Of a stretch of 64,000 bases of DNA, positions 9,190 through 43,900 are shown piece by piece. The notes below the pieces were generated by a model. The model was given only the letters and a program-made list of their open reading frames with translations. It was not told the origin of the DNA and did not search any database. Each line of letters begins with the position of its first letter. Within the stretch, counting starts at the first letter, position 1. The position numbers and the translations under genes are program-made. Source of the DNA: Jaapia argillacea MUCL 33604 (lineage: Eukaryota; Basidiomycota; Agaricomycetes; Jaapiales; Jaapiaceae); assembly GCA_000697665.1 (NCBI GenBank), contig KL197720.1:62456-126455 (forward strand), written 5' to 3'.

Positions 9190-10350
9190 CCAAAGGTGAA
9201 AATGGCTGAATGGGCTGCAAGCATTTCCAGCACTGGTCTAGCATTTTCTGAAATATGTCGAACTAGTGCTGGAAATGCCTTACTGATATTCTTAGGCAAG
9301 TCGGGCATTTTTAGATATGTGTCTGACATTTCTGGCAAGTGTTTGGCATCTTTAAGCACTGTACTCAGGCATTTCCGGCATTGGTCTAGCATTCTCAGGC
9401 AAGTTTGGCATCTTCTGGCACCATGCTCAGGCATTTCTGGCACTATTCTAATATCTTTCCAGAACTTGTTTGGCATCTTCAAGTGCTCTACTCAGGCATT
9501 TCCGGCACAATTCTAATGTCCTCAGGCAAGTCCGGCATCTTTCACCACCATAATCAAGCATTTCCAGCATCAGCCTAGTATTCTCAGGCAAGTCAGGCAT
9601 TTTTAGGTATGTGTCAGATGTGTAAGTCTGGCATCTTCTGGCACCTTACTCAGGCATTTCTGACACCAGTCTAGTATTCTCAGATAAGTCCTTTCTGGCA
9701 CTTGTCTGGCATCTTCAAGCACAATACATGGGCAAGTCAGGCATCTTGACGTACAGTCCGGCATCAGGCCACAGTCCGGCATCAGGCCACAGTCCGGCAT
9801 CAGGCCACAGTCCGGCATCAGGCCACAGTCCGGCATCAGGCCACAGTCCGGCATCAGGGCACAGTCTGGCATCCTGGCACAGTCTGGCATCCTGACACAG
9901 TCTGGCATCTGGACTCAGGGCATAGTCTGGCATTCAGGCACAGTCCAGCATCCAGGCACAGTCTGTCATTGGGGCACAGTCCGGCATCCAGGCACAGTCT
10001 GGTATCCAGGCACAGTCTGGCATCTGGACTTAGTCTGGCATTCAGGCACAGTCTGGCATCAGGGCACAGTCCAGCATCAGGGCATAGTCCGGCATCCAGG
10101 CACAGTCTGGCATCCGGGCACAGTCCAGCATTGGGGAACAGTCCAGCATTTGGGCACAGTCTGGCATTCAGGTAGAGTCTGGTGCCAGATTGTGTACAGA
10201 TGCCTGACTGCACATGGATCCCTAACCAGGCCTAGATGTCTGACTGGACCTAGATGCCTGACAGGCAATACACAGTTACAGTCTGGCATCCAGGCACAGT
10301 CTGGCATCCAGGTATAGTTAGGCATCTAGGCAGTCATACATAGTCCGGCA
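9190..10350. repeat. Composite minisatellite built on a 'ggcat' word
   Basis: From 9190 to about 9730 a longer unit of roughly 50-60 bp alternates words such as 'caggcatttccggcac', 'tctagcattctcaggcaag' and 'tggcatcttc'. From about 9730 to 10,350 it changes to an 18-bp unit of the form 'cagtcyggcatcnnggcr'. Between 9754 and 9861 six units follow in perfect 18-bp register, five of them identical, while flanking units vary. Because 18 is a multiple of three, several frames stay open on both strands (MPDC.. on minus, ASGHSP on plus). These open frames are products of the repeat and are not called as genes. Confidence 0.85.
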
Positions 10351-10810: not shown

Positions 10811-13281
10811 TGGCTGAACAGTGTGCTAGTAGAACCATTACCTGTCTTATAGAGATAGGCAGTGACTAGCAGACTGAGACAAGAGTACAAGACAAGAGTG
10901 AGTGAGACAATAGAGTGAGCAGAGCATCAGTATAATCTGAGGGAAAGCAAGTCGCGCCAGCAATGAACAAGTATCAACAGCCACAACAAATAACAACAAC
11001 AACAGCCACAAATCCCACAACCATCCATGAAGGACCCAAGTCCTTACAACTGTGTTGTGTTCGGTACTCCAGACAAGTAATTTCCCATCTGGGGCGTAGA
11101 GAAGTCTGGTTCTCGGGTCATACTGTGCTTGAGAAAAATATTCTTGGGTAGCCGCCTTTACTTCGTCAACTATTGCCGCTCAGAGATTACTTTGAATCTA
11201 GGTGAGATTACTTGACTTGATTCTGTAATGGCGACTAATCAGGAGTATTCGTGAAGGATTGTGAGGAGATTGCGGAGTCAGAAGTTTAATGATTATATCA
11301 AGAATCTCTGATAGGACCATGTAGATAAGGGAGTACAGAATGATTAGGGTTTTGGGGGTAGTAATCATCACTGGGTAGTCGGTAATGGTTCAATGTAAAT
11401 TTGATTGCCGTAACAATGATGTGGTGGAATTCTACAAAGAATTCAACAAAACTCAGAGGGTCTGATCAGGATACAGGTATGTTTCTGATGAGTTCTGGTT
11501 CAGGGTTTCTGTTGTTTATGACAGGTCTAAGTTGAAAGACACATGGAGGTTTGTGGACTGGGGGTTCGTGATGAGGGTTGTGTGGGCAACTGGGATGGTA
11601 TCCTCCAGTTTCTGAACAGAGTGGTCATGCACAGGTTTGGTGTCAGTTACGGTAGTGTGGGTCATGTCCAATTCTGCTACACAAATGATTAGTGCAAGTT
11701 GGGTGTGGCCTTTCGGATTCTGGTGGGTTGATGTTGTTTAATATGTTATGTGGATGGCTTGAGCAATGGGGATGGTGACTGGTGTAGTTACAACAGGGGT
11801 TTTAGCAGGTTGGATGCTGTCAACATCCAGGACTTCTGTTGTTTCATGGAGACATTGTGGCAGACGATCAGGATTTAATCAATCTGTGACAGGGAATCTT
11901 GTAACCAATACGTATTGGGGTAAGGTCAGCTTGGGTAAACCATATGTGGTCAAGGTTGTAACTTCTTGGCGAGTCAGTAGAGTTGTTCCACTAGGTAGAT
12001 GAGTGTTGCGGCGAGTGTGGCTTTGATTGAAGCCAGTTTAATTGGTTTGGTGTTCGTCATACTTCCGTTGGATCTCTCGTATGTATTGATCAAGTCACAA
12101 TGCAAGATCAATGAATATGTCACTGAGGAATTGTCAGAAGAGAATGACGAACTGGGGCGTGTGGGTGGTATGATCACGGATCCTGACAGTGTTGGTATCG
12201 TAGAGTGAGTAGGGTTGGTAAGAGCTTGTCCAAGTGTTAGGAGTGCCTTAGCAACTAGTACTCAGGCTACAATCTTGAAGCTGTAGAGGATGACAAATGA
12301 GAGTGAACTGGTTGAAGGATACAACTAAAGTGCTGTATTGTTCAAGTGGACAAGCTACTGAATACAGAGTAGCTAGATGTCCTTATATACTACAGAGACA
12401 ATGGAAAGTTGAACAATGTACCAAGGACAATAATGAATGAGACAATGTACTTAGACAATGGCAAATGAGTTAAGGTTCATAGACAATGACGAAGGATAAT
12501 AGATATGGACAATAGAAAGAGAACAAAGAAATGGAGAACAATGACAAGGCTGTGACGGGGCTGTGCAGTCCAAGTCATTGTGTGCTAAAAATAGTACAAA
12601 GTCCAAAACCAGAAACAAATCATGTTAAGTATCATAGACAAGGGAAATGATATGAAAACGAATGAAGTCTGATAAATGAGAATGAAATACATACAATACA
12701 AATGAAAATGTACAAGTCCGAATGTGTTCACAATATAATATGACATACGGGTCTCACTATTTATACTTGTTTCACATTTATCATTGCTGCTCCCTCCATT
12801 TCATTGTTTCTTACTAAGCATCCAGTCTCTCCATAGGCTTCCTATGCTCTCTCTTAGTTCTACTCCTATACTTTGGACATTCTTCAACTCAGATCCTAGG
12901 GATTTTATTTCATTCTATCTCTCCTCTCTCCATGCATAACCTAGCTGTAGCAGAATAGATTCTTGTATACTGTGAATCCTATGGAGTCAAGGCCTGTCAC
13001 TGTGTAGATGTATTTAGAGAAATAGGGCAAACAAATATGAAGAACAGGAAACTGGAAACCAAGTAGTACAACAACTATAGAAAGAAAGTTGGATTGATAT
13101 GGGAAGAGTAGACTGGTGGAGAGAATCAAAACAACTACAATTATCAGACATATTCATGAGACATATTGAGAAATGAAATACAATGACAGAAGTTCTAAGG
13201 ACAGAATGTTCACAGTGAGGAGGGACATTCAAAAATTGTAGAAGTGGAATGGAGAGCCTTGAGGAGGCTGTTTTAGTGAGG
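10811..13281. other. AT-rich stretch, no gene recognised
   Basis: Open frames are short. The longest are 60-80 codons on either strand without recognisable motifs. A CAA/ACA-rich low-complexity patch lies near 10,970-11,010 and a run of 'gacaatg' words near 12,400-12,530. Some mobile-element decay product is likely. Confidence 0.35.
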
Positions 13282-13640
13282 CTAATAATGATTAAAACAA
13301 ATGTTAGTGAGTTTTACTTGCAAATAGAAGAATTGTACCATCAAATTATCCACAATGAGTAGATAGAGCCAATTTTCCTTGTCCTCCTTATCCATTTGAA
13401 AAACATCAACTTCAGTATAACTGTTCTCCACCAACTGCCTGGCATGAGAGACATAGCCAGATGAATTGTACTTCTTCACAGCTTTAGCAAATTTGTCAAT
13501 AAATCTCTCGCCAGAATACCAGAATGAATGCTCTGTAATGAGCAGAATGGCTAAAATAAATGTTAATAGAGTGAGAATGCCAAAGAAAATTTGAATTACC
13601 TGCAACACATTGTAAATAGAAAAGATTCTAAGAATCAAAG
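13282..13640 (-). other. Possible orphan exons resembling the tail of GTPase-family proteins
   Basis: On the minus strand a short exon-like piece (NLFYLQCV, near 13,612-13,638) is followed by a plausible 50-nt intron (GTAATT..TTTTAG). A longer open piece begins AILLITEHSFWYSGERF and ends near 13,285. The pattern of a hydrophobic stretch, EHSFW, a charged helix and a C-terminal acidic helix resembles the tail of some agaricomycete G-domain proteins. The GTPase gene at 15,504-16,786 lies on the same strand upstream, with the 78-bp array in between. These pieces could be its displaced C-terminal exons or a remnant of another paralog. The link is inference. Confidence 0.3.
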
Positions 13641-13844
13641 AAGTTCAAATGGTTAGCAACCAGATTATACTCAGAGTATAGTGTGGGTCTTACAGAAGAA
13701 ACACTGCCAAGCAGCCTAAATGTGGGCTGCAATATTGCAAGGGACTTGATCTAGAATATATTGTACCAGACCATTGGATAGTAGAAAATAATGTAAATGA
13801 GATGAAAAGTCTCATTCAAATTAACTGGGGTGAATACATACAGT

Positions 13845-15477
13845 CTAGATGAGAAAATAACAAGAAAAGAAGATCAGTTAATAATAAAACAGAAGTCATT
13901 GGCAACTTATGACTCACATGCTGAGGAAAGACAGAAGCAAGCAGACTCCAGTCAGCTGGCTATGAAACAGAAGTCATTGGCAACTTATGACTTGCCTCCT
14001 GATGAAAGACAGAAGCAAGAAGACTCCAGTCAGCTGGCTATGAAACAGAAGTCATTGGCAACTTATGACTCACCTTCTGATGAAAGACAGAAGCAAGCAG
14101 ACTTCAGTCAGCTGGCTATGAAACAGAAGTCATTGGCAACTTATGACTCACCTCCTGATGAAAGACAGAAGCAAGCAGACTCCAGTCAGCTGGNNNNNNN
14201 NNNNNNNNNNNNNNNNNNNNNNNNNNNNNNNNNNNNNNNNNNNNNNNNNNNNNNNNNNNNNNNNNNNNNNNNNNNNNNNNNNNNNNNNNNNNNNNNNNNN
14301 NNNNNNNNNNNNNNNNNNNNNNNNNNNNNNNNNNNNNNNNNNNNNNNNNNNNNNNNNNNNNNNNNNNNNNNNNNNNNNNNNNNNNNNNNNNNNNNNNNNN
14401 NNNNNNNNNNNNNNNNNNNNNNNNNNNNNNNNNNNNNNNNNNNNNNNNNNNNNNNNNNNNNNNNNNNNNNNNNNNNNNNNNNNNNNNNNNNNNNNNNNNN
14501 NNNNNNNNNNNNNNNNNNNNNNNNNNNNNNNNNNNNNNNNNNNNNNNNNNNNNNNNNNNNNNNNNNNNNNNNNNNNNNNNNNNNNNNNNNNNNNNNNNNN
14601 NNNNNNNNNNNNNNNNNNNNNNNNNNNNNNNNNNNNNNNNNNNNNNNNNNNNNNNNNNNNNNNNNNNNNNNNNNNNNNNNNNNNNNNNNNNNNNNNNNNN
14701 NNNNNNNNNNNNNNNNNNNNNNNNNNNNNNNNNNNNNNNNNNNNNNNNNNNNNNNNNNNNNNNNNNNNNNNNNNNNNNNNNNNNNNNNNNNNNNNNNNNN
14801 NNNNNNNNNNNNNNNNNNNNNNNNNNNNNNNNNNNNNNNNNNNNNNNNNNNNNNNNNNNNNNNNNNNNNNNNNNNNNNNNNNNNNNNNNNNNNNNNNNNN
14901 NNNNNNNNNNNNNNNNNNNNNNNNNNNNNNNNNNNNNNNNNNNNNNNNNNNNNNNNNNNNNNNNNNNNNNNNNNNNNNNNNNNNNNNNNNNNNNNNNNNN
15001 NNNNNNNNNNNNNNNNNNNNNNNNNNNNNNNNNNNNNNNNNNNNNNNNNNNNNNNNNNNNNNNNNNNNNNNNNNNNNNNNNNNNNNNNNNNNNNNNNNNN
15101 NNNNAAGCAAGCAGACTCCAGTCAGCTGGCTATGAAACAGAAGTCATTGGCAACTTATGACTCACCGGCTGATAGAAGAAAGAAGCAAGCAGACTCCAGT
15201 CAGCTAGCTATGAAACAGAAGTCATTGGCAACTTATGACTCACCCGCTGATGAAAGACAGAAGCAAGAAGACTCCAGTCAGCTGGATATGAAACAGAATT
15301 CATTGGCAACTTATGACTCACCAACTGATGAAAGATAGAAGCAAGCAGACTTCAGTCAGCTGGCTATAAAACAGAAGCCATCAGCAACTTATGACTCACC
15401 CACTAATGAAAGATAGAAGCAAGCAGACTCCAGTCAGCTGGCTATGAAACAGAAGTCATTGAAAACTTATGACTCAC
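13845..15477 (-). repeat. Tandem array of intron-like 78-bp units
   Basis: The unit is exactly 78 bp. Donor-like sites on the minus strand sit at 15,477, 15,399, 15,321, 15,243 and 15,165, then (after the gap) 14,151, 14,073, 13,995 and 13,917. All are in one register, 21 positions in total. Each unit reads GTGAGT..CTGAC..pyrimidine tract..CAG in 75 nt, with the branch-like A about 31 nt from the 3' end, then three nucleotides before the next GTGAGT. The spacers read, in minus order, TGG, TTG, CGG, CCG, (gap), GAG, AAG, GAG, CAT; other positions are nearly constant. One donor is GCAAGT, a tolerated variant, and one acceptor is TAG. The last unit ends in a different 73-nt intron-like sequence (13,845-13,917). 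On the plus strand the units read as a 26-residue repeat (KQKSLATYDS..), but two units there carry stops while splice-like signals persist. Confidence 0.85.
14194..15104. other. Assembly gap (911 N) inside the array
   Basis: A run of N interrupts the 78-bp array. The flanking units stay in register across it (17 periods between the donors at 15,477 and 14,151), so the gap would hold about 11.7 units if its size is right. Confidence 0.98.
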
Positions 15478-15503
15478 CTTGTGATCAATGAGGGAAGTGA
15501 ATA

Positions 15504-16786
15504 TCAGTATATCATTTCATCTTCATGGTCACCTACCCAATAGTGGGTATACATCATCAACATGTCATCCAATATCTTCTTATCCATATTCCCTTCACTC
15601 CCCACTCTTGATCGTCTACACATTCAATATGTCATCTCTGACATGAAGTATCATATTCTATGACTTGCTTACTGAATTGCTCTCTTGGTGCATAGCTTCA
15701 GATTGTTTGCCTCAGTTGTGATAAAGATTAGTTGTAAAGTGGTGTCATCAATAGCTGTCACTGTCTTGTCTGTAAGTTCTGGACACTGATTTAAGGGCTT
15801 ATTCATATCTACACAAATTCAACTTAATAACTTGCACAATATTGACTAATACACACACCTTGAAGGCAAACCCATTCTTTGGGAGGGTACTTTGCCTTCT
15901 TAAGTTGATTGAGATACTGCTGCTGAAATTTTTCAAGTGCAAATTGAGGTGCTTCTTTCCAAGCACTCTCAAGGTCTTGACCCTGTGATTTTAGCTCGTC
16001 CACAGCCTTTACTATTTGAGCATCAAATTTGGTGAAGATGGCAACCACAGGTACTACAATTCAACATTTTCTAAGCCATCAAATTGCTATCAACATTTTG
16101 CTCACTTACCATCTCCAGTTCCAATATCAAAGAATGACATCTCTGCAGCAGAAACTGGTCGATCCCCATCCAAGGGAATGCAATACCTATGGCCCAGATG
16201 CTCAATAACAAATAAAGCAAAATTTGGACAGAACAGAAGATTGAATACTAACCAAATGACATGCAGTCTATCCCTCAGTCTTCCGTAGGTAGCATACACA
16301 TCAATGAATTCCTTCACTGTTTGCAACTCATTCTCCGATCCTGCTTCAAAGCCTCGAGAGTCATGAAACACAAAATTACTACCAGGATAAGTAATTTGGT
16401 GCTGGATATCATGCTCTCCTCGCTATTAAGAAAAGTGGAAAACTTCATATGATATCACCAGAGTAATCTCCTTGCCTACCATGGTTGTTGGCTTTTTAAA
16501 CCAAGATGATCTCAACTGATCTCTGTCAGCAACCAAACGAAGACAAAGTACACTTAGCACATACCTTGTTCCCGTCGTGATCGTAAATGATGGGCTTGGT
16601 TCCAGGTTTTGCATTGCAAACCTTCTGAAGAATGGTTGTTTTACCGGCGTTGGCTCTCCCGATGATGAGGATCCGAAACTGGGGGCAATCCCTTTTGGCC
16701 TCGATGAAGTCAGAGTATGATGGGGTGGTTTCATCGAGGGGATCTGGATTGACGTTTGGGGCGGAATGGTCAGCGATATCAGCCAT
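15504..16786 (-). CDS. P-loop GTPase (AIG1/Era-like G-domain protein), 7 exons
   Basis: This is a GTP-binding protein of the G-domain family greatly expanded in agaricomycetes; its biological role is unknown. Exons: 16,786-16,565; 16,515-16,480; 16,422-16,253; 16,186-16,110; 16,053-15,859; 15,808-15,673; 15,615-15,504. The sum is 948 nt, in frame, giving 315 residues. The Walker A motif GRANAGKTT lies at about residues 43-51, HDSRGFEAGS is the switch/G3 segment (near 110), FTKFD is the G4-like motif, and DMNKP plus LQLIFITTEANN match the family's later part. The start is the first Met before FRILIIGR. It ends 27 nt upstream of the tandem intron-like array. An alternative is that exon 7 ends at 15,537 (GTAGGT) and splicing continues into the array. 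The first exon has normal gene composition while the rest is AT-rich like the repeat zone. Confidence 0.8.
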
Positions 16787-20956: not shown

Positions 20957-21652
20957 GTTGAATCCGCTCAGTGTCCGGGCGTTCCTCCTCCGAATATCTG
21001 TGGATATGCAGGGGTTAACGTTTTAGTACTCCAGATATATTTTGTCCTGGCACTCTTTCATCGCTCTGAAAAACTGCAAGAACTCACGAGAGACTATTTC
21101 TCCTCGACGCCCCACCTCGCCAACACTGCAACCTTGCTCCAGGGTGATTAATGCGACGTGCCTGGCCGACGGCCGAACGCTGAGCCCAGGTGGACTTTAG
21201 AGAACATGATGGAAGATGGTGGAATCAATATTCTCAGAGTCTAACATCTCAAGCCCTTTGTCATCAAATTCATCTTTCCCTCTTGTTGCCTTTGGTCTTC
21301 CTCGACCACATACTGAGTCTCTTTTGCGCCAATTTTAGACCGATATTGCTGTTCACTCGCATCCATATTCCACGCTCTTGTAAGTATCTTCGACGTTCGC
21401 AGTATACTATTCTCTAGTGTCGTTCCTCATGTGGTTTGAGGTTTGATCTATATATCCACTGGAAGCCAGCCATCCGAACTAATCTCAATCGGACCCGCTA
21501 TCAACAGTCAGGCTCTAATCCCGACCAGCCACGAGTTCTTGCTCGGCGATGGACGATAGGCGCTGCGCGATGATACTACTGATTGGCGCCCAGGAACCTG
21601 GGCAATGCGTGGGTTTACCACGACTTTCCTCCTCTTGCCTTCCACCATCAAC
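20957..21652. other. Divergent intergenic region
   Basis: Lies between the minus-strand pseudogene and the plus-strand GTPase gene. No open frame with recognisable content. A CT-rich tract precedes the GTPase start. Confidence 0.4.
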
Positions 21653-23804
21653 ATGTCGACGACGGTCGCCGCTGAGCAACCCCAGGGAGAGTCGTCTGTC
21701 ACGTCGGATGCTCCACTCGAGCCAACAATGAATGCCATCACGGACACCTGTTCCAGGTACGTATGAGCCTGATTATGAGTGTAATATGGTGTTAATCGAT
21801 ACCAGGTTTCGTGTCCTGATCGTTGGACGAGTAAGTTCCCCGCCTTACATTCTGGCAATGTGACATATCTCTCGGATATACAGTCTGGGGTTGGCAAATC
21901 AAGTCTGATCAACTTCGCCTTTGGGACCAAGCAGGCGGTGAGTCTTCGTTCAATATTGTTGTACTTTCTTCGTCATTTGATTTGTAATACTCAACCTACC
22001 ATGCTTCAGGGAGTTTCAGATTTTCATCGAGGGGTCGCGTCGATCGACGAGGAAATCATCTCCCCTGGGAACGACCGTTTCGTGCTGCATGACTCCGAGG
22101 GCTATGAGCCAGGAGAGGCCGAAAACTTCAATAAACTCAAGAATTTTATCGAGAAACGAACGATTGAAACAGATGTGGGGAAACGACTGCATGCAATTTG
22201 GTGGGCGGAATCCGCATTGGCGCCTGAATCGAGTTGATGTACTAATGCTGAAGGTCAGGCTATGCACCCCAACACCCTACGCCGGAGGTCGTGTGTTCGA
22301 GGCGGGAGATGATAAGATATTTGATCTCGATCTGCATTCAGGTGAGCGATTTGGCAGGCCATTCACCGACAATCCAGTCACCTCATCTTGTTGTAGTTCC
22401 TGTGGTCATCGTCTTCACCAAATACGATCGACTTATTACATCGGAGGAAGGGGAGATGATGAGGGGGAACGTGGCGTTGGATGGTGCTACCATCGTCAAG
22501 AAGGCTAAAGAACGAGCGTCGAAGACTTATAAAACTGTGTGTGTGCAACAGCTCAAGGCGACCTTCAAAGGGAAAGGGATTCCCCCATACATTTGTGTTT
22601 CAGGTGAGCTTATTTGCTTCGAGTCGATTCCCTGGTCTAATGGTAGCTGGTTGGTAGTGAAGGACGGCTACGAGTCGACTCTGCAGTCACTCATCAAACT
22701 CACGTTGAAGTCAATGCAATTTGGCGACTCTTCTCCGGCACCAAGCCGTTTCAATGTCCGTGACCTGTTTCAACGTCGACCGACCCCGGAGCAAGGACCC
22801 AGTTCAGACGATTCCATCTCGTTAATTCCAGCTGTGATAGTCGGGGCTGCTGCACAGAGGGTGGACATGCCGTCGAAGATCACAGCCTCAATTGAGTATG
22901 TGACTTGGTCGAAGTCAAGTTTCGAAGCTGACACATTATCGCAGCGTTGGACGGAAAAGTTCGGCTCTCCTCTCTTGAATCACAGTTTCGCTGATCCCAT
23001 CCACTAGAATATTGGAGGGGCTTGGCTTCTGGCGCGCAATTTCTCGGAAAGACGTTGGAGCCGTGTCTCCAGGCACTCCATAGCGATATTGTGGCGGTCT
23101 GGAACTTTTCCGACGTCGGACCTGTGAGCAGCCGTGACGTTGTGCCATGTCAATTTGATTCGGTCTGATGTTTTGTTCTCTAGTACCTTGAAACCATGGC
23201 GTTCAAGGCCAACGTCTCCAAAGTCGTGCAAGACCTTGCTGATCCGGAAATACCCAACCCCAATGATGCACTGTAAGTCGACCAGTCTGCTGCAGACCTT
23301 AGCCATTTAACTCATCAACGTCAGGATGGATGTTACTTCGAAGGTCGCCTCCGTCATGGGCGCGGTGACAACGTTTGCGCACCCAGGTGCGGTGGTTGTT
23401 GCTCCCGTCGTAGTCGGCGTTCTTTTTGCAAAATGGGTTTATGGTGTCTACAAAGTAACGTGCGTCCTAGCCTCTGCATGCCACTCAGCAAAGATGATGA
23501 CACGAGATGCAGGCCTAGCATCGTTCGCTGCCTAATGGGCTATATCGTCGATCTCACTATCGTGATGCAGCGATTGTTTTTGTTGATCAACCCGGCCGAC
23601 AGCGCGCCACTCACACAGGTGATAGTTGATAGCACTTTGGAAGGGTACGATAAGTCACGGGAGAAAATGGAAGTTCACAACCAGATTAGAGAGTTCGTTC
23701 GTGATGCTAGTATCTTTCGCGGAATGGGGAAGGATCGTGTCTTTGAACAGGTCGTGACCTTGATCAATAAGCATAGCCCCCGTCCGCAGGTTTCCTCCTC
23801 GTAG
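21653..23804 (+). CDS. P-loop GTPase (G-domain protein), second lineage
   Basis: A second, distinct GTPase of the expanded agaricomycete G-domain family. The start is the Met at 21,653 before a Ser/Glu-rich lead. Short introns (GTACGT..CAG, GTAAGT..CAG, GTGAGT..CAG) join FRVLIVGR, SGVGKSSLINFAFG (Walker A), GVSDFHRGVASIDEEI, FVLHDSEGYEPGE (G3) and VFTKYD (G4-like). The C-terminal half has GAAAQRVDMPSKI, VGRK, QALHSDIVAVWNF, a membrane-like VVVAPVVVGVLFAKWVY, and RCLMGYIVDLTIVM, ending in a helix at 23,804. These match a family pattern in which a hydrophobic segment follows the GTPase domain. Between about 22,950 and 23,060 the frame could not be carried through with standard introns: it passes VGRK, meets a stop, and resumes in another frame at KTLEPCLQ. 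This may be a missed intron or a lesion. Confidence 0.7.
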
Positions 23805-24010: not shown

Positions 24011-24377
24011 AGTTAGCTGGGCGAGCAACAGCATTCCGGCAACCGCAGTCTACATAGTTGTAGTACAGAATGTGAAGGGCCCTCGTTCCGGTTTCTGCGC
24101 ATGCAGCCGATAATCGCGAACAGTCTTCAAGATTGTCTCATCTATGTTACTGTCAGGAGTTATCATGAGTTCCGGGAGGGTCATTCGGTCGGTTTACCGC
24201 CTTGATGATACGCAAGGAATCGACAAGGCGGCAGGCGACAAGATTACCTGGAGGTATGGATACATCTACAATTTCAGTCACAACAAAAACCAGTGAGTAA
24301 TACACATGCAAGAGAGCAAATACAACGGAAGCTAATGTCTACATACAAAGGAAATTCAAGTCAGCGTCACGGTAATA

Positions 24378-25598
24378 TCAGTCCTTCTCTAGGTTGGAGC
24401 AAACCATGACTCCTTTCCCATCGCGCTTGAAGCAAATGACTCCGATCCATAACTCACTGACACCCGGACAAACCGCCTGCACACCTCTGGCGACCCGTTC
24501 AGCAGCCTCCTGACCTTCCCTCTTTACCCGTTTAAGCAAACTAGGGGTGTGTGGCATGCACCATGGAGGGTTGAAACCGATGCCGAGAGTGGAGGAGTTG
24601 GGAAGGATTAGTCTGTGGAGATGAGCAAAATGAGCAAATTCTGGTAAAAATTTCTGATGGGGTTGGGGGTTAGTCTTTTGGATGAAGAGATGATAAGATA
24701 TGGGAGGAGGATCTCACCATGATGCCTTGCTGATTTGATTGATCTTCCGATAGATCACCGCTGAACTTTAGTTCCTTGAGCAGGGGGAGAGACTTCAAGA
24801 TATCTGCGAACGATTGCGGAGATTAGACTCTGTGGGACTATGGATACATTGGCTTACCTTGAAGTGTGTTCGAGCTGATCGCCTCTGCTGTGCTGAGAGT
24901 TCGAAGTCGCCGACGAGATGTACCGAGCGGCTCGGTTATTGCGACGAATTTGACGACTTTGTCTTTATATAATGAAGTCTCCTCTAATTCGAGGATGTTA
25001 GGACAGTGGTTGATGAGGAAGGCACAGTTGCGTGATATGGCGAGGTTTTCGATTGTAAGCCAGGGTCCGCAGGTTCTGAGGAGATGGGCGAATGCAGAAC
25101 GAAACTTGGGAACGAAGGGATCTTGAATTAGGAATGTGAGGGTATGTAGTTGAGGGAGAGAGGCGAGGAATGTTGGGAGGAGCTTGTATGTCGTTGGAGA
25201 GGGACAGTTTTTTTTCACGTCTAAAACGTAACCATACAGCTGGAAGGTTCTGGATCGGAAGGAAGATTGTGTGAGGGGTGGGATCCTTTCGAGTTGGGAG
25301 AACAACTGTTAACGTACTTGATGGCACGACATAAAGGAGGATTCTTGACCATAAGTTTCATCCCTTCGTCAAAGGCCTTCCAAGACGGACTGTTTGGCCG
25401 CGTGTTGTTGAAAGTCACCTTTTTGAAGAGCCATGGATAGCATGCCTCTCTCGTTCGGGAGTCAACCAAGGAGAGGGCTAACAAGGACTTTCGAGCTTCG
25501 TTGGGAGCTCGACTTGACGCAGAGTTGTTTGGGAGGGTGGCTGTCTCTTGACAAAAAGCCTCAAGGACATCGTACGGGATGTCGTTCCATCGGTTCAT
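24378..25598 (-). CDS. F-box-like/LRR-type protein, copy A
   Basis: Likely a substrate-receptor type protein with a degenerate F-box and a leucine-rich helical tail; the target is unknown. Exon 1 starts MNRWNDIPYDVLEAFC and contains ALSLVDSRTREACYPWLFKKVTF, the F-box-like helix set of basidiomycetes, up to PLCRAIK. A short intron follows (GTACGT..ATCCAG). Exon 2 has LLPTFLASLPQLHTLTF, CAFLINHCPNILELEE and RRRLRTLST. Exon 3 has LPLLKELKFSGDL. Exon 4 has ILPNSSTLGIGFNPPWC, VARGVQAVCPGVSELWIG and ends VMVCSNLEKD. All exons are open and joined by plausible GT..AG introns. The start is the Met conserved in all copies. It is the leftmost full copy and differs most in exon 2. Confidence 0.75.
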
Positions 25599-26033: not shown

Positions 26034-27289
26034 TTATCGATCCCTCTCTTGGTTAGAGCAAACCATGACTCCCTTCTCATCACGCTTGAAGCAAATATTT
26101 CCGACCCATAGCTCACTGACGCCCGGACAAACCTCCTGCACACCTCTACCAACCCGTTCAGCAGCCTCCCGACCTTCCCTCTTTACCTGGTTGACCAAAT
26201 CAGGGTTGTTCAAGTATGTATTACCGCACCATGGAGGGATGAACCCAATACCGAGAGATGAGGCTTTGGGAAGTACCAGCTTGTTGAGGTGAGGGAAACG
26301 TGCAAACGCTGGCAATAGTTCCTAAGGTGTTGTATTGGTTGATTTGATGAGCGGATAAGGACGGGAGGAGTGTCCCACCATGATGCCTTGCCCAGGTGTT
26401 TGACCTTCGGATTGGCCGCGCCGCCCACGCGATATAGGTCTGCTCAACCTCAATTCCTCGAGCAGAGGGACGGACGTCAATATATCTGTGCCCAACAACG
26501 GAGGTTACACCCTGTGGGGATATGGCCACATCGGGTACTTACCTTGTAGCATGTCTGAACTAATCAACTCCGGAGTACTGAAAGTTCGAAGTCGCTGGCA
26601 AGATGTACCGATCGGCTTGGTCAGGGTGATAAATTTGACCTCTTCATCTCGAGATAAGGGTCTATCCTCGAATTCAAGGAGATTGGGACAGTGGTTGATA
26701 AGGAAGGCACAGCGGCGTGAGATGGTGAGTTTCTCGATGGTGAGTAAGGGTCCGTGAATGTTGACGACGTCGTCAAATGCGGAGCGGAAGCCGGGGACGA
26801 AGGGGCCTTGGATGCGGAACGTAAGGGTCCGTAGTTGAGGGAAAAAGACGAGAAATATTGGGAGGAGTACATATGTCGTTGCAGAAGGGCGATCGTTTTT
26901 AATATCGCTGACCCAAGCGTCAAGCTCGAACACTCTGAATCAGATGGAAGAATGGGTATGGGGTGGGATACCTTCGAGATGGGGAGAACGGCGCACCTGA
27001 CTGCGCGACACAAAGCAGGGTTCTTGACCATATGTTTCATCCGTTCGTCAAACGCCTCCCAAGGTGGGCTGTTCGACCCCGAGGTCTTATCGAAAGTCAC
27101 TTTGTGAAAGAGCCATGGATAGCAGGCCTCCCTAGTTCGGGAGTCAACCAAGGAGAGGGCAAGCAAGGACTTTCGAGAGTCATTGGTAGATGGACTCGAC
27201 CTATCATTGAAACCCGAGCTCGTGAGGGTGGCTGTCTCTTTACAGAGGGCCTCAAGAACATCGTATGGAAGGTCGTTCCATCGGTTCAT
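26034..27289 (-). CDS. F-box-like/LRR-type protein, copy B
   Basis: Same architecture as its neighbours. Exon 1 (from the Met at 27,289) holds MNRWNDLPYDVLEALC, a longer Ser/Asn-rich loop (GFNDRSSPSTNDS) and ACYPWLFHKVTF up to LCRAVR. Exon 2 holds FELDAWVSDI, CAFLINHCPNLLEFED and TFSTPELISSDML. Exon 3 holds LPLLEELRLSRPIS. Exon 4 holds MPAFARFPHLNKLVLP, VARGVQ-type helix GVQEVCPGVSELWVG, and an altered end SNQERDR. An upstream in-frame Met exists (27,391), but conservation among copies favours 27,289. A GC-rich loop (RPIRRSNTW) in exon 3 is shared with copy E, so B and E are closest there. Confidence 0.75.
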
Positions 27290-27993
27290 TCCGGAGTTGC
27301 TGAGATGATCTAGGGGGTCAATCAGTGAATCTTCAAGTCCTATGGTGGCCGTCAGGATTGAAACCAACTCTGACGAGGTCAGGTACGGCATTAGGGCAGT
27401 ACAGTTCTAAAAACGAACGGCGCCTTCGCCGTTTCTCGTTCTGTTTCTGCACATGTTGAACACTGGAAGACCTGGGAAACCAGCAGATGCAACGCCACTC
27501 AGTAACAATGGGAAGTCGAGCCTAGTCATTGTCCGTCCACGGCGCACACGATGTGGAGAAGCCAAGCAGGTCAAACTTGGAAAGAAATAGGACGTGACCG
27601 GCGTGAATGGAATTATGATATCACTGAGTATTTGTGTCGGGGAAATCCAAATTGCCCTTATAAGGCCAGACATGGACATAACGAGGCCTCATCAGTCCAT
27701 CAGGATTTCGGATGGCTGGTCAGGTTCAAAACTAACCTAAAGGCAAGCTGTGATAAAAGAAAAAGACACTTCCATCTCACTTACCCATTACTTATCATCT
27801 GCACTGAACGCTCGACAATACAATCTTGACTAGGCGGCAGGCGAAGGCGAAGGGATTATATGAAAATATGGCTAAATCCTTAATTTCAGCCAATAACACT
27901 GAAACGCAAGCAAGTGGTACACATGTGAGGGACCCGATACAACAGAAGCTGAAGAACGCATACAAAGCAAATCAGGTCACGACCACCATACTA

Positions 27994-29261
27994 TCAGTCC
28001 TTCTCGAGGTTGGAGCAAACCATGACTCCTTTCTCATCACGCTTGAAGCAAACCTGTCCGACCCATAACTCAGTGACACCCGGACAAACCTCCTGCACAC
28101 CTCTACCAACCCGTTCAGCAGCCGCCCGAGCTTCCCTCTTTATATGGTTGACCAAAGCAGGGCTATTCGAGAATGCAGTAGCGAACAATGGAGGGTTGAA
28201 ACCGACGCCGAGAGAGGAGCTGTGGGGAAGTACCAGCTTGTGGAGATGAGCGAAATGAGCGAATTCTGGTAAGAATTCCTGAGGGGGGTTGGGGGGTTAG
28301 TCTTTTGGATGAAGGGATAATAAATTATGAAGGAGGGTCTCACCAGGATGCCTTGCCGATTTGATTGATCTTCGGGGTCGGCTCTCGGTACGCGCCTCGT
28401 GCGAGACAATAGAGACAATAGATTCCCGCTCAGCTTTAATTCCTCGAGCAGAGGGAGGGACTTGAAGATATCTGTGACCAATCGCGGAGATTAGACTCTG
28501 TGGGACTATGGATACGTTGGCTTGCCTTGAAGTGTCTTCGAGCTGAACGCCTCTGCTGTGCTGAGAGTTCGAAGTCGTTGACAAGATGTACCCAGCGCCT
28601 CGGTCAGTGTAACCAGTTCGACGGCTTCGTCTCCGTGTAATGAACTCTCTTCGAATTCGAGGATGTTAGGACAGTGGTTGATGAGGAAGGCACAGCTGCG
28701 TGAGATGGTGAGGCGCTCGATTGTGAGCAAGAGTCCGTGGGTTTTGACAAGATCGGCGAATGCGGAACGAAACTTGGGAACCAAGGGATCTTGGATTCGG
28801 AATGTGAGGGTATGTAGTTGGGGGAGAGAGGCGAGGAATGCTGGGAGGAGTGTGCATGTCGTAGGAGAAGGACAATTGTTTTTCACGTCTTTAACCCAAA
28901 CATCCAGCTCGAAGGTTCTGAATCAAAAGGAATGAGGGCGGGATCACTTTCGAGATTGGAGAACAACATACTTGACTGCACGACATAGAGTAGGGTTCTT
29001 GATTATATATTTCATCCTTTCTTCAAACGCCTCCCAAGATGGACTGCCAGTGTTCGGCAACTTCTTGTTGAAAGTCACCTTTTTGAAGAGCCATGGATAG
29101 CATGCCTCCCTCGTCCGGGAGTCAACCAGAGAGAGGGCAAACAAGGACTTTCGAGCGTCGTCGGGAGCTGGACTTGATGCATCGGAACATGAGCTCGGGA
29201 GGGCTGTCGCTTTACAGAGAGCCTCAAGAACATCGTACGGGATGTCGTTCCATCGGTTCAT
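27994..29261 (-). CDS. F-box-like/LRR-type protein, copy C
   Basis: Exon 1 begins at the conserved Met (29,261) with MNRWNDIPYDVLEALC and continues to TLCRAVK. Exon 2 has FELDVWVKDVKNNCPS, LASLPQLHTLTFRIQDP, CAFLINHCPNILEFEE and ALGTSCQRLRTLSTAEAF. Exon 3 has LPLLEELKLSGN with a longer insert (LLSLSRTRRVPRADPE in one reading). Exon 4 has the GVQEVCPGVTELWVG helix and ends SNLEKD at 27,994. The Pro-Trp motif GFNPPW of other copies is changed here (LKPPLFATAFS region), so the loop before the last helices has diverged. All exons are open. Function is inferred only from the F-box-like N-terminus. Confidence 0.72.
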
Positions 29262-30903: not shown

Positions 30904-32167
30904 TCAGTCCTTCTCCAGGTTGGAGCAAACCATAACTCCCTTCTCATCACGCACAAAGCAGATATGTCCGACCCATAACTCACAGACACCCGGACAAACC
31001 TCCTGCACACCTCTAGCAACCCGTTCAGCAGCCTCCCGACCTTCCCTCTTTACCTGTTCGACCAAACCAGGGTTGTTCATATATGCATTACCGCACCATG
31101 GAGGGTTGAAACCGATGCCAAGAGATGAGGCTTTGGGAAGTACTAGTTTGTGGAGGTGAGGGAAACGGGCGAAGGCTGGCAAGAATTCCTAAGGGGTTAG
31201 GTGTGAATCGTTGTAATGAAGGGATAAGGTAAGGGAGGAGTGTTTTACCATGATGCCTTGCCCAACTGGTTGACCTACGGATTGGCCGCGCCGCCTACGC
31301 CACCAAGACGATATATGGCTGCTCAACCTCAATTCCTCGAGCAGAGGGACGGACGTCAGGATATCTGTGACCAACAACGGGGATTAGACCCCATGGGACT
31401 ATGGATATGTTGGTAGGTACCAACCTTCCAGCATGTTTGAACTAATCACCTCTGCTGTGCTGAGAGTTCGAAGTCGCTGGCAAGATGTACCGAGCGCCTC
31501 GGTCAGTGTAACCAGTTCGACGGCTTCGTCTCCGTGTAATGAACTCTCCTCGAATTCGAGGGTGTTAGGACAGTGGTTGATGAGGAAGGCACAGCCGCGT
31601 GAGATGGTGAGTTTCTCGACTGTGACCAAGGGTCCGTGAGTTTTGACGAGATCGGCGAATGTGGAGCGGAAGTTGGGAACGAAGGGATCTTGGATTCGGA
31701 ATGTGAGGGTGTGTAGTTGAGGGAGAGAGGCGAGGAACGTTGGGAGGAGTGTGTATGTCGTTGGAGAAGGGCGATCGTTTGCCTGGTCGTTGACCCAAGC
31801 GTCAAGCTCGAAGGTTCTGAATCACGTGGAAGATTGGGTAAGGGGTGGGATGCTTTCGAGGTGGGACAACAACTTACTTGACTACACGACATAAAGAAGG
31901 GTTCTTGATCATCTCTTTCATCTTTTCGTCAAACGCTCTCCAAGATGGACTGTTCGACCACGTCTTGTTAAAAGTCACCTTTTTGAAGAGCCATGGATAG
32001 CAAGCCTCCCTCGTTCTGGAGTCAACCATGGAGAGGGAAAACAAAGATTTTCGAGCGTCATTGGGAGCTGGACTCGGCACATCATTGGAACATGAGCTGG
32101 GGAGGGTGGCTGTCTCTTTACAGAGAGCCTCGAGAACATCGTACGGGATGTCGTTCCACCGATTCAT
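30904..32167 (-). CDS. F-box-like/LRR-type protein, copy E
   Basis: The rightmost full copy. The Met at 32,167 opens MNRWNDIPYDVLEALC, followed by SLVDSRTREACYPWLF-type helix (here SLSMVDSRTREACYPWLF) and SLCRVVK. Exon 2 has FELDAWVNDQANDRPS, CAFLINHCPNTLEFEE and the same SCQRLRTLSTAE block as copy C. Exon 3 has VPLLEELRLSS. Exon 4 has MPAFARFPHLHKLVLP, GIGFNPPWCGNAYMNN, GVQEVCPGVCELWVG and ends SNLEKD at 30,904. Exon 2 is nearly identical to copy C while exon 4 is closest to copies B and D, a mosaic pattern that fits gene conversion between copies. Confidence 0.75.
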
Positions 32168-36339: not shown

Positions 36340-39300
36340 ATGGCCACTCCTCCTGGCTCTCCGCCTGCGTCCCGGACCCCAACCTTGGCTGGGGTGCAGA
36401 CGGGATCTTCGAGGAAGAGTGGATTCTCTATACGGGTCGACCCTCCGCCGACATCCTCCAGTGAGTTTTGTGCTATCGATGCAGGAACTGCACGAATTTG
36501 ACTATACGAACCATAGGTATCTTCAGGGACGAAAAGGAGGTGGGGAAGGAAGCGTTCGAAACTTTTTCTGCGTACGCTGCCTCTCGATGTAATCATAGCC
36601 CCGCTCACTTATCCTCTGATTAGTAAATTCAATTCATTGGACGAAGAAGTACGTTCGCTGTCAAGGTTTTATTGTTCTTTCAACTCACTGATCGTTCCAG
36701 TTGGCCAAATTGGCGAATCATGCCCTCAGTATGGGAAGTGGTGCACGGATGTACACCTACTCGTGCCGTCTTCGTACTAGGTTGAAGCACGTAGTTTCTT
36801 CTTTCCACCAAAATGCCGTTGAGATCTTCGAGTTTACAAAATCTCCCTCTCCTGCCCATCTCTCGCATTTCTTGACCCAAAAAACACAAGAAAAACCCTT
36901 GGTTCTGGGACCTCCAGCTATCGTTTCTGCCCACAGTACGAAGGATGACTCTATATCTGGATTGTTGAACGGGCTTTCGGAGGACCTTCACGCCTTTCTC
37001 GTTTGCCTGGATGAGTTCCAGACGTACCATGATGACCAAGGAGTCACCAACACACTTCGATGTTTTGCGAAGGACCTGAAGGTAGATTTGCTGGGACCAT
37101 CGCTTTCTACGTTACTGACTATATCACTAGTACATGGCGTCCTTACTTCGCCAATATGAAGGTGAGTATCGAACAAGTTTTCCAGGAGCGGAATCATAAC
37201 TCTTGCTTGTAGCATCTGGCGATGATGCCTTCCGGCGCCTTTTGCACGATTTGAGCGCCGATATTGGTGATCACGCCCACAATCTCACGAATAGCTTGAT
37301 ATTTTCATGGGTTCGGGTATGTAGTGAATTACTTTGACGTCTCGTAGATCCCTGATAGCCATTCGATGTACAGGGGTTCCAACCATCCAGTCGGCGCAAA
37401 GTCATGCTGCTCAAAACATGTCGACCATCTCGACCATTGGTAAATTATTCCTCAGTCGCTAATTCTCAATTCACTGACTTGTGTCGCTTCAGCGACATTC
37501 TTATCAGCAGTGACGGCGACCGGTCTTCAGCTCTCCTACACTTCGAACGAAACTGTTTTGGAAAACATCGTCAGCGGATGTTGGTTTACTTCCCTGGTGT
37601 TCAGTATCGGTGCTGCCATCAACGGAGTATTGGCCATGACGTGGAGACAAGCCATCTAGTGAACATGAAACCCTCTCGTACCCTTAAAGTCTTATCTAAT
37701 ACCGAGATCCACTGCAGCTGCTCTCCCGGCGCCGTCCCTCTGTGGTTTTTAGTCTGGGTTCGACACTCTCCGTTGATCTTTCTGATGATTGCTGTCGGCT
37801 GCTTTTGCTGTGGAGTCGTTGTCTTCGCATGGTCATCTGGCCAGGTAAGCTAAATTACTGTCTAAATTAATGTTTTCACTGATTCTCGCAGAACATTGCT
37901 GTTCGTATCATCACAGCTTCCACGACCATCTTCACTTGCGTCGGTTTGTTGATGGCCTCGACTTGGTTTCTCCTCGAACAACTCGTGTACAAACGTTACA
38001 AGGGTCAGAAGGTCATGCTGGAGGTCCTCACCGATTTCTGGCGTGATCTGATCAACCACACTGGCATCGGTCGAGCCTCGGACGTTCTTGTACAGCAATC
38101 AGAGGCAACGACTTACCCAATATTCTATCTCTACTGGGTGTCCCTAGCGGCTGTCTCTCGCTTTCCGCTGCTCATGATGGAGAAGTGGAGGAATTGGAGA
38201 AAGTCAGAAAGTTGTAATATCCCTTACTGTCTCTTGGAATCTGGCGCTGAATACATGTACGCTAGCTCTTCCTGTCGCCACGCCATCCCGGGAAGAGTCT
38301 TCAAGCGAGACTCTGAAGTCACCTCCTCCAAGGCGCCGGCTGCGAGCTGTCGCATGGGCTGTAGCATCATTTGTGAAAACTGGGAATGACAGCGAGACTC
38401 TGAAGCCGCCTCCTCCAAGGCGCCGTCTGCAAGCTGTCGTATGGGCTGTAGCATCATTTGTGAAAATTGGGAATGACGAAGAATCGGCCCACGTCGAAAC
38501 ACACAAGTCGAATCGGGCCGTATCTCTTCACGAACATGCGAAATGGTCTGTTAATACAGGGAGTGCTGGGATCTTGACGGGCCTGGAGAGCATATTGGTC
38601 TCTGACAGCGTAATACGAGACCTTCAGTTCTCGCCTTCCGAGCGGACATCAACCAGGGCTAGCTTTCTTGGCGGTTTATTCAACCTTGGACCCAAGTTCT
38701 CTCTGATTGCCTCTAGGTACGACCCAACCTTCCTTCATTACGTCCAAAGCAACTACTCACGATCTGATAGTGCAGATAAAATTGTGGTCCTTCAACCAGG
38801 CAACGTATGTGATTGCTATTCTACTGGACAGCACTCAATTGACGTGCTCAGGGTACCAATGTATCTGAGGAAATCTCACACTCCGAGGGAGTCGATACTC
38901 AAGTCATATGGTAAGTATGTGGATGTTCAACTCTCACATTCTCATATTTCCCAGGTCGCCCACTGGGTGTGAGGTATTCACGAGGGGGAAGCGCTCGGTT
39001 AGAATCTGGAGTCAGGTGCCTTCATTTCACCACTTGTGAAATCAATGGCCCGAGATTTAATCATATATACAACCAGTTGGAAAGTGGCAGATGGAAGGCT
39101 CGGAAGATTGACCGGCTACGAGGGTTGGAATCTATTGCGCCTTTACCCAACGGAAAGGGTGAGTGATACTCTTACCTGGTTCGAATATACAAAGGAAGAA
39201 AGTGATGTCACGTACAGATTTCCTACCCGTCGAGAGCGGTGATGTGACAAGAATTGTACGTATCTTTATCTTGCGGCACCGTTAACTTATGTACCAGCGA

Positions 39301-40966: not shown

Positions 40967-43900
40967 ATGCATCCTTCACGCCCATCCCCAACATCCACCT
41001 CGAAATTCTCGCTCGCCGCTCAGGCTGGGAGATCTCCATCACGTAAATCTGGTCGCAGACATACTGTTCATGATGCTCTAGTGCAAGGTTTGTTTCTCCT
41101 CCGATCGCATTTGCTTCAACACATGACTTCAAAATCCCCAGTTTCCCATGAACGTTCCATCACGGAGGAACCTTCACCTAACGAAACTTGTTGAGTCCTC
41201 CTCCTTCCAAGCTCTCAATTTATTGAAGCTTCCCTCAGGCATTACGAACAACGAGAAGCCTGCGGGTACACAGGAGTTCCAGAATTTCGCCAAGTATGTC
41301 GCCGTCTCGAGTATTCGTCCCCTTTCAGACTGAGGTCTTAGCCCATTGTAGGAGCCTCGAAGCCCTTGACAAAGAGGTACGTTACAATCATTATACTCGA
41401 GATTTTGGCCAATTATTGGTAGCTTGCCACACTCGCCAACGATGCTCTCAGGATGGGGAGCGGGGCCCAGATATATCGTTATTCACGTCGTCTTCGAAGG
41501 GCTCTCGATCAGGTCATGTTCTTTTTTCACTTGAACGCCGCGGAGCTGTTCCATTTCAGTCAAAGTGCGCGGCCAGATCCTGCGGATCGACCGCAGTTTC
41601 TAACGGCGAACAGCCAAGAAGCTGTCTGGGAGAAGCTAAAGGATCCCTGCCCATCTCCGTTATCGACATACGTTGACGGGGAGTCTGCTAGCCGCATACT
41701 CAGTGGCTTTGCAGATGACTTGTATGCGTTTTTTGTCTGCCTCGACGAGTTTCAGGCATACCATGACGACGAAGAAGTCAACTATGCCTTGCGATGCTAT
41801 GAGAAAGACCTAAAGGTATAGTCTAAGCTAACTACAGCTATGATCAGTTGTTGACAGAGCTATAGTATTGGGCATCCTTCCTGCAGTACAATGAAGGTGA
41901 GTTCATACCTTGTGGTTTCACGCAACCAAGCCTTGGTTGATTTGTCTCCCATCCAGACCCCGATGACTCGGACCCCGCCGTCAGAAGACTTCTACATGAT
42001 CTCACCGCTGACCTTGGAGACCATGCTCAGAGCCTAGCTGCCTGTTTGCAGTTTTTCATCACCTCTGGTGGGTATTTCTATGTCCCTTCCAATCTGTGGC
42101 ATTATTCACACCTTGCAGGAGTGCCAGCCATCCGCTTCGCGCAAACACATGCTGCCCAGAACATGCTCAGCATCTCTACCATCGGTCAGTGAACTACAAT
42201 TGCTAGGGCTTTCATTGCACCAACTTTCTATCAGCTACCTTTCTGTCTGCCGTGACAGCGACCACCCTCCAATTCTCATACCCGTCGACCAAAACGATCT
42301 CCAACAACGTTGTCAATGGATGCTGGTTTACTTCCCTGGTTTTTAGTATCGGAGCTGCCATTAACGGAGTGCTAGGCATGACATGGAGACAGGCAATATA
42401 GTAACTTTACCGTCTATTCACGCTTTCCATTTCTCCAAAGCTAATTCTTCTGCAGCTGTTCTCCAGGTTCAGTTCCCCTGTGGTTTCTAATCTGGATCAG
42501 ACACTCACCGTTGATATTTCTGATGATCTCCGTTGCTTGCTTTTCAACTGGACTTGTATTTTTCACCTACTCATCTTCTCAGGTAGGGCCTACCACTGTG
42601 GCATCTGTGTCCTCCATTAAACTTGAAGTCACCATAGCATATTGCTGTCCGCATCGTCACGACGACTACGACGGGATTCGCGGGAGTTGGTCTTGTCATG
42701 GTTGCGAGTTGGTTCGTGTTAGAACGCTGGATGTTCAAACGCCACAAAGGCCACAAATTACTCCTTGAAGAACTAAATGATATGTGGAGGAAATTCACTC
42801 GTTTAATCGGTTTGCGCTGGACCTCTCGATTCCTCCTGTCACGCTTGGAGGCGTTTGGTCTCGTAGCTTCCGACCGATTTTGGATCATCATGGCAGATAT
42901 GTCCCGATTGTTAAGTCTCCGGCGCAATGATGGTATGTCCTTCTTGTCCCTCGCATCCTTATTGAACTGCTGGGCTCATGCCTCACAGGTATTCTTCCTG
43001 CCATAAGTCAGCCTCAGTCGACTCCCGGAAGACAGTCAAACTTCGGTTTTGCGGCGGCCTTGAGGGGAACCGTCCGCCTTGCCTCAGCTTTCCTAAATCC
43101 CAGTAACCACCCACACCAGACGCCTTCTCGCCAAAGGTCGACTGATTCCGCGGATACTGCAATAATCCGACCGGGTCAACAATGGATACAATCCAGCACA
43201 GAGAGTCCAAGTGGACCGATGTGTTTGCGAAGAATATCTCCGTTCGATGGCATGATACGAGAACTCAAATTCTCTCACAATGGAAAGTTGCTCACCGTGT
43301 CCAGGTAAGTACGTCGCCACTCGACTCGCAGCTCCTTCCATCTCAAGGCCTCAGTAGTCGACGCAAAGCGGTTGTTCTTCAGGCAGGAGAACTGAATGTG
43401 AGGTCCTCCCTCTGAATGTCGATCATAGGTACTGATTTCTCACTGTTTCGTAGCGCCGGACGCCTTATCAAGAGCTTCCAAGTTCTGAAAGCATCCGACA
43501 AGCTGATTGGTACGTATGCGGTGCAAACTCTACCTCGTGCTCTACCTACACTGATATCCCCAGGTCCGGAGATTTAGTCCTGACGAGGGGAAAACGCTCT
43601 GTTCGGATTTGGAGCGCAGGGGTACTCCCAGCCAGTTATATCTAGGACCATCCCTGGCTGATCTCCTTTCTCCGGGCGCTTCCAGGACGGACAGTGGAGT
43701 TCTCGCAAGTTTGAACGCTTTCGTCAAGTGGAATTCGTCACTCCATTCCCCGAAGGATACGGTATGCTGTCGCTCTAAATAAGCGACCATGAATTAACTG
43801 TCCCCCTCTCAGCATTTCTCTCCGTCGAAGGCGGAGATGTGACGAGGCTTGTGAGTTCCTCTCTTTTAAGCTAAAATCTTAAGCTTGAACAGACGGATTC

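Follow-up and report, generated by a model that had tools for sequence, protein, structure and literature searches.

What is the intron-like sequence that recurs head to tail on the minus strand of one contig of Jaapia argillacea MUCL 33604, and is it removed by splicing? The window analysed here is a stretch of 64,000 nucleotides (assembly GCA_000697665.1, contig KL197720.1, positions 62,456 to 126,455 of the forward strand), and coordinates below are positions within it. Direct reading of the minus strand from 13845 to 15477 reveals the repeat at an exact 78-nt step, with nine donors visible. The array is a real and unusual structure. The explanation that we favour, and to which we give about an even chance, is that a spliceosomal intron of the U2 type, 75 nt long, was amplified in tandem along with a one-codon exon to ~20 copies inside a GTPase-like gene and would be spliced unit by unit.

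Layout of the array

The visible donors, by which the units are named here, lie at 15477, 15399, 15321, 15243 and 15165 on one side of an assembly gap and at 14151, 14073, 13995 and 13917 on the other. The parts of the array, with the evidence for each, are the following; micro-exons are putative.

15403–15477, minus: array intron, then micro-exon TGG 15400–15402 (direct reading, splice score)
15325–15399, minus: array intron, then micro-exon TTG 15322–15324 (direct reading, splice score)
15247–15321, minus: array intron, stop-free in phase 0, then micro-exon CGG 15244–15246 (direct reading, splice score)
15169–15243, minus: array intron, then micro-exon CCG 15166–15168 (direct reading, splice score)
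15105–15165, minus: array intron, of which 61 nt precede the gap (unit alignment)
14194–15104: run of 911 N, an assembly gap that keeps the phase of the 78-nt repeat (direct reading)
14155–14193, minus: 3' part of an array intron leaving the gap, then micro-exon GAG 14152–14154 (direct reading)
14077–14151, minus: array intron, then micro-exon AAG 14074–14076 (direct reading, splice score)
13999–14073, minus: array intron, then micro-exon GAG 13996–13998 (direct reading, splice score)
13921–13995, minus: array intron with GC donor (GAG/GCAAGT), then micro-exon CAT 13918–13920 (direct reading, splice score)
13845–13917, minus: last intron, 73 nt, with a unit-like 5' 31 nt and a 3' half ending CATCTAG (splice score at the 95th percentile)

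Each of the seven complete units consists of a 75-nt intron plus 3 nt. The donor motif is GTGAGT at eight of the nine visible donors and GCAAGT at 13995. This lone departure involves two simultaneous changes (13990–13998) and reads GAG/GCAAGT, which is the usual form of functional GC donors. In all nine units in which columns 41–45 can be read, these columns spell CTGAC, with 0 differences in 180 comparisons; the A of this motif sits 31 nt before the 3' end of the intron, and each complete unit contains a pyrimidine-rich stretch. All nine visible 3' ends are AG, with CAG in seven and TAG in unit 15477 and the last intron. The last intron matches the unit over its first 31 nt; its 3' half is different, and ACTGAT stands in place of CTGAC. 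The eight visible spacers are TGG, TTG, CGG, CCG, GAG, AAG, GAG and CAT.

The middle of the array is hidden by the run of N, which has room for 12 more donors. The gap interrupts the intron of unit 15165, and one further unit is known by its 3' part alone, with a donor that would fall at 14229, inside the gap. The 78-nt register holds from one side to the other (15165 − 14151 = 13 × 78), an agreement expected by luck in about 1 of 78 cases if the length of the gap were arbitrary. Together, the nine donors seen and the 12 that fit in the gap would give ~21 introns. At its borders the array shows a weak similarity to the unit (7/1000 and 17/1000 shuffles) that is confounded by pyrimidine content, a hint that the borders may be decayed units.

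A first-pass annotation of this DNA had described a 75-nt stretch running from GTGAGT through CTGAC to CAG, followed by 3 nt and repeated. Direct reading of the visible units bears out this description and the annotation's claim that GCAAGT, at donor 13995, is the sole donor change, and its list of spacers agrees exactly with the one given above. The single TAG acceptor that it reported is present in unit 15477, and the last intron has to be added to it. Its estimate of about 21 introns holds for nine visible donors, and the remaining 12 are deduced from the length of the gap.

Splice signals and the probable host gene

Splice-signal tables were derived from the 64-kb window itself, using a simple gene finder with weights set by hand. 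The first-pass seeds were partly entered by hand and partly taken from the array gene, and included strings equal to the array donor and branch site. When the gene finder was trained on its own output it diverged, predicting as many as 541 introns, and the first-pass introns were used instead. This set contained 86 introns in 15 gene models, from which the 11 of the array gene and nine beside exons shorter than 20 nt were removed to leave 66 reference introns. These predicted introns have a median length of 56 nt and a 5–95% range of 47–78 nt, with prediction limited to 140 nt. Pfam domains are matched across introns by two gene models, which provided checks on the intron set: an isochorismatase-family gene at 59330–60451 on the minus strand (Isochorismatase, one junction in the best stretch) and a methyltransferase–rhodanese fusion at 61961–63700 on the plus strand (methyltransferase and rhodanese, four junctions). 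The remaining gene models and ORFs have partial or no Pfam matches, and their introns are predicted only.

The window also holds four neighbouring paralogous models on the minus strand (24153–25598, 26034–27391, 27994–29261 and 30904–32167). All have the motif MNRWNDxPYDVLEA close to the start, preceded in the second model by 34 residues, and the position of the first predicted intron is common to three of the four; two stretches of this cluster tested against Pfam gave no match. Two related models on the plus strand (36340–38389 and 41148–43842) share motifs such as LAxLAxxALxMGSGA and YHDDxxV.

The seven complete units and the last intron were scored, and the two partial units were left out. 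Scoring was repeated with tables from other genes because the first-pass seeds overlapped the array gene, and the picture was unchanged. The stricter of these tables were trained on 14 introns from the two Pfam-matching genes, none of which has a GTGAGT donor, and another set was trained on 26 introns; in both, branch sites were still chosen with the first-pass branch table. Each line below gives the donor, the score in bits, the percentile among the 66 predicted introns (leave-one-out), the percentile among 52 untrained predicted introns with the 14-intron tables, and the percentile among 40 with the 26-intron tables.

15477: 16.2 bits; 98; 90; 85
15399: 13.0 bits; 67; 73; 62
15321: 14.0 bits; 79; 67; 80
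15243: 14.9 bits; 92; 92; 85
14151: 15.4 bits; 95; 90; 92
14073: 16.3 bits; 98; 96; 98
13995 (GC donor): 10.2 bits; 23; 38; 52
13917 (last intron): 15.5 bits; 95; 90; 88

The signals of a U2-type intron (GT or GC donor, branch site, pyrimidine tract and AG, at the usual spacing) are present. All eight scored introns lie within the window's predicted range, and seven of them in its upper half. Outside the array, 18,902 GT..AG pairs of 50–90 nt include 41 that reach 14 bits and 11 that reach 15, real introns among them. When the unit with spacer GAG was shuffled with its dinucleotides preserved, the observed best intron score was equalled on either strand in 24 of 3000 trials, and tandem arrays built from random 78-mers of the window equalled that score in 17 of 2915 (~0.6%). 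The highest-scoring intron that can be placed in the 78-nt unit is 75 nt long, leaving exactly 3 nt. It is unlikely, though not impossible, that the units fit the splice signals by chance.

Searches with the unit sequence returned little else. In the 64-kb window no second place resembling the unit scored above shuffled queries, and an exact 26-nt pattern of the unit had 0 matches in viral contigs. No snoRNA was detected in the array introns by an Rfam match at gathering score; below threshold there were a CD-box match at the array entry (21.6 bits versus 55) and two lncRNA matches over the array (18.9 and 18.3 bits versus 60). The predicted RNA fold of the array intron is no better than that of shuffles (z −0.07 and −0.77).

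Upstream of the array, on the same strand, we identified a GTPase-like gene whose open frame reaches 15537, one predicted intron before the first array donor, and beyond the array an open frame with a transmembrane stretch.

16565–16786, minus: exon 1, GTPase-like gene, MADIADHS..., P-loop GRANAGKT (open frame; Pfam MMR_HSR1 below cut-off)
16480–16515, minus: exon 2 (hand gene model, in frame)
16253–16422, minus: exon 3, RGEHDI...FHDSRGFE...HVI (hand gene model, in frame)
16110–16186, minus: exon 4 (hand gene model, in frame)
15859–16053, minus: exon 5, VPVVAIFTKFD... (hand gene model, in frame)
15673–15808, minus: exon 6 (hand gene model, in frame)
15537–15615, minus: exon 7, ending in phase 0 before GTAGGT (hand gene model, in frame)
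15478–15536, minus: entry intron, 59 nt, ...CACAAG (39th percentile)
13842–13844, minus: candidate further 3-nt exon ACT before GTATGT (direct reading)
13751–13841, minus: candidate exit intron, 91 nt (weak, 12th percentile; alternatives exist)
~13285–13599, minus: candidate C-terminal exon with a transmembrane stretch (VIQIFFGILTLLTFILAILLITEHSFW...) (open frame)

In the hand-built model the gene starts at 16786, and its seven exons total 915 nt, are free of stops and arrive in phase 0 at 15537; the intron preceding exon 7 scores low (8th percentile). The P-loop region reaches 20.5 bits against Pfam MMR_HSR1, just under the cut-off of 21.9, and the best PDB match is EngA (E 0.014). A bacterial locus among the genome contigs searched has 35% identity over residues 14–75 of the 192-residue GTPase query, and was taken as a general GTPase match. 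Neither the GTPase-like nor the C-terminal query yielded a confirmed homologue in viral contigs, and the candidate C-terminal exon has no Pfam family match above cut-off. Basidiomycete GTPases of this kind often end in a transmembrane segment.

The entry acceptor at 15478 (AAG) abuts the donor at 15477, producing a zero-nt exon. It is the sole acceptor–donor contact of the array, so that a ratchet-type arrangement, in which an acceptor is followed directly by a donor, occurs only at 15478/15477 and elsewhere 3 nt intervene. Because the frame arrives in phase 0 and the entry intron ends at the first GTGAGT, each spacer corresponds to one whole codon. Read through in phase 0, six of the seven complete array introns contain a stop, the exception being unit 15321. 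From 13844 to the transmembrane exon there are 11, 6 and 13 open chains in phases 0, 1 and 2, with best scores of 3.47, 5.27 and 3.76, respectively; phase 0 is not preferred downstream, since phases 1 and 2 also link, and with higher best scores.

The gene finder was also asked how it parses this region. With the first-pass tables, two of the three intron costs gave an entry parsed into exons of 79, 0, 3, 3, 3 and 39 nt; at the strictest cost the array gene was not called. With the tables from other genes, a model reached the array in three of ten settings, using exons of 0, 3, 3 and 3 nt in two and of 0, 3 and 81 nt in one; the other seven gave no model in the examined range. This use of 0- and 3-nt exons lends mild support to splicing unit by unit.

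The first-pass annotation had placed the array after a same-strand GTPase gene. It is probably inside the gene instead, for the open frame enters at 15537 and the same-strand transmembrane exon lies beyond; a location within the GTPase-like gene is likely from the predicted exons, but not proved. The 2-kb bin that contains the 3' part of the array gene (12001–14000) is low in G+C at 0.376, as is the bin at 1–2000 (0.367); other gap-free bins range from 0.46 to 0.53. A second GTPase-like gene model, at 21605–23804 on the plus strand, has a GVGKSS P-loop and an LHDSEGYE region, and its predicted C-terminus is unlike that of the array gene.

Variation among units and competing explanations

Differences among units are concentrated in the spacers. 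At spacer positions 1 and 2, 44 of 56 pairwise comparisons differ (0.786), against 159 of 2548 (0.062) in the 75-nt intron part. When the 32 non-consensus changes were redistributed at random, no pair of adjacent columns matched the observed variability in 3000 trials. Saturation at two sites demands a far higher rate of change than the array introns display. The first-pass annotation had regarded all three spacer nucleotides as variable, which is correct for the first two; the third is G in seven of the eight visible spacers. Donor and acceptor positions differ at rates of 0.074 and 0.083, compared with 0.062 over the whole intron, and because these rates are close to that of the intron, they give no sign of purifying selection on the splice signals, CTGAC perhaps excepted. 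This point and the saturation of the two spacer sites speak against the favoured explanation.

Hot column pairs are found elsewhere in the window. An 18-bp repeat at 9750–10180 (22 units) also has two adjacent hot columns, with a rate of 0.621 versus 0.143 in the rest, so that such clustering is not unique to the array and can arise otherwise. The 18-bp repeat is present at 10278–10332 as well, and a 62-bp repeat lies just before it (9341–9600).

The distant units 15399 and 14151, and likewise 15321 and 14073, each share a private intron variant and differ at both free spacer positions; a private intron variant is also shared by the adjacent units 15477 and 15399. These patterns would fit the duplication of blocks of units and then fast change in the spacers, or variants that recurred by chance. 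The variation at NN, with G kept by the donor consensus, is best read as possible selection on, or toleration of, residue changes. The introns may be kept alike by exchange between repeats while the NN of the spacer varies.

A possible though less favoured explanation is that the array is carried by one long or recursively spliced intron, such that exon 7 joins an exon beyond 13845 and the spacers are mostly lost. The units would then act as ratchet points or decoys that help to remove a long intron in a short-intron genome. The entry is after all a zero-nt exon with acceptor abutting donor, any array donor can pair with any later acceptor, the spacers need not code, and introns of Cryptococcus reach 2,124 nt in the available part of one report (PMC3990503). 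However, the span of more than 1.6 kb is far above the 47–78 nt (5–95%) of the 66 introns predicted with a 140-nt limit, and this explanation accounts neither for the variation at the two free spacer positions nor for eight spacers of 3 nt with G last in seven. We consider it unlikely, in turn, that the array is an inert 78-bp minisatellite in which the splice-like motifs of a founding unit, whether a real intron or a chance resemblance, were copied without splicing of the units; the array gene may then be a decaying copy. The ~0.6% of random tandem 78-mers (17/2915) that reach the intron score speak for it, as do splice positions about as variable as the rest of the unit, the variable column pair of the window's 18-bp repeat, and a downstream gene part that is not firmly connected. 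Yet the upstream gene is open through seven exons and ends in phase 0 at the array, and the two variable columns fall on the very exon that the splice signals predict.

The plus strand offers another candidate, a gene encoding a 26-residue repeat (KQKSLATYDSPPDERQKQADSSQLAM), for which one frame is open from 13806 to 15338 if the run of N is counted as open. Such a gene is very improbable: TAG interrupts two of the seven complete units, codon positions 1, 2 and 3 differ at 0.058, 0.088 and 0.056 with the hot columns excluded and thus without a third-position excess, a silent proline site is hypervariable (21/28) compared with other fourfold sites (15/276), and no Pfam family matches above cut-off. 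There is similarly very little reason to regard the array as mis-assembled, or its copy number or order near the gap as wrong. While 911 N do lie within it and the hidden part is unreadable, private variants differ between the units on the two sides of the gap, the 78-nt register is unbroken by it, and clustered spacer variation is not expected from such an artefact. We also considered that the variable spacers might derive from reverse-transcribed intron concatemers with untemplated junctions; the constant spacer length and the G in seven of eight argue against this. Taken singly, splicing unit by unit explains the data best, with about an even chance of being right; its main rivals are the long or recursively spliced intron and the inert minisatellite. 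The splicing proposed in the first-pass annotation is supported in its fit to splice signals, its 3-nt remainder and the variation of the first two spacer positions; what changes is the variable part of the spacer, now two nucleotides, and probably the position of the array, inside the gene and not after it.

Proposed splicing and comparison with known systems

If the units are spliced one by one, intron definition, pairing the nearest donor with the nearest acceptor, would remove each array intron from 5' to 3'. Nearest-pair splicing is the simplest scheme because introns in the window are short. Every step would leave one codon (NNG) and put the next donor at the end of the new exon, like a ratchet in recursive splicing, with a codon added at each turn. 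The resulting protein would have a variable linker of ~20 residues between the GTPase part and the transmembrane segment, in which the visible micro-exon codons would read W L R P ... E K E H. Since the unit is 78 nt and the spacer is one codon in phase, skipping of any number of units stays in frame, and retention of an array intron would usually bring in a stop (six of seven complete units). More tentatively, and we hold this to be rather doubtful, the locus may be a codon-depositing array, a linker written one residue per splicing event in which the codon diversifies and the introns are homogenised, and which would serve as a region of recognition or signalling specificity.

Introns are reported by Zhuo et al. 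2007 to have arisen from tandem duplication, and complex introns known as stwintrons exist. The comparisons that follow draw on the available portions of the sources cited. Like the array, intron-forming tandem repeats in human genes supply splice sites, and repeat sequence becomes intron (PMC2812944). However, in those portions the introns that arise by tandem duplication are single or few per gene, whereas the array has ~20 consecutive near-identical introns with an exon of constant, one-codon length in which variation is concentrated. Dozens of tandem introns in a single transcript are found in SNHG14, with 29 for SNORD115 and 48 for SNORD116 (PMC11608373). SNHG14 is a snoRNA host gene, in contrast to the array, which has no Rfam family at cut-off and would have 3-nt exons in a putative coding gene. 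Introner-like elements are, as here, near-identical spliceosomal introns in fungi; they are dispersed in unrelated genes, whereas the array copies are confined to one place in the 64-kb window (PMC4457414).

Very short exons have precedents. Schistosome micro-exon genes contain strings of short symmetric exons, as the array would, and have been proposed to vary their proteins by alternative splicing; their exons are 6 to 36 bp, compared with the putative 3 nt here, and tandem copies of a single intron are a feature of the array (PMC5825161). The homothorax gene has an exon of 3 bp (PMC7392893), and CYP621A of Fusarium one of 1 nt (PMC12940212). In Cryptococcus, whose introns have a median length of 56 nt, exons can be as short as 1 bp (PMC3990503), and P450 genes of Phanerochaete contain exons of 6 bp (PMC1184071). 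Exons of 1–6 nt therefore exist, in fungi included, and it is the tandem array of one intron that sets this locus apart from the examples in these excerpts. In the fungal HNWD repeats, concerted evolution homogenises the units and a few codons are under positive diversifying selection (PMC2873952). Those are coding WD40 repeats, whereas in the array it would be the introns that are homogenised, and each varying codon would make up a whole exon. The within-array pattern of hypervariable NN and homogenised introns resembles HNWD as a likeness of pattern, not of descent. Among the matches listed from the open-licence literature, none describes identical introns that follow one another in tandem with single codons as their exons.

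If spliced as it looks, the locus would be, to our knowledge, the densest run of introns with the smallest exons in one gene. It would be a natural test of the minimum distance between two introns, and a case of intron gain by tandem duplication caught early. The near-identical units are a ready-made assay for nearest-neighbour intron definition versus skipping. Splicing as it looks would also be a new route to diversity in proteins, by way of exons one codon long, and, should the codon-depositing array be true and the hidden units be like the visible ones, up to ~2^20 linkers could be made from one gene.
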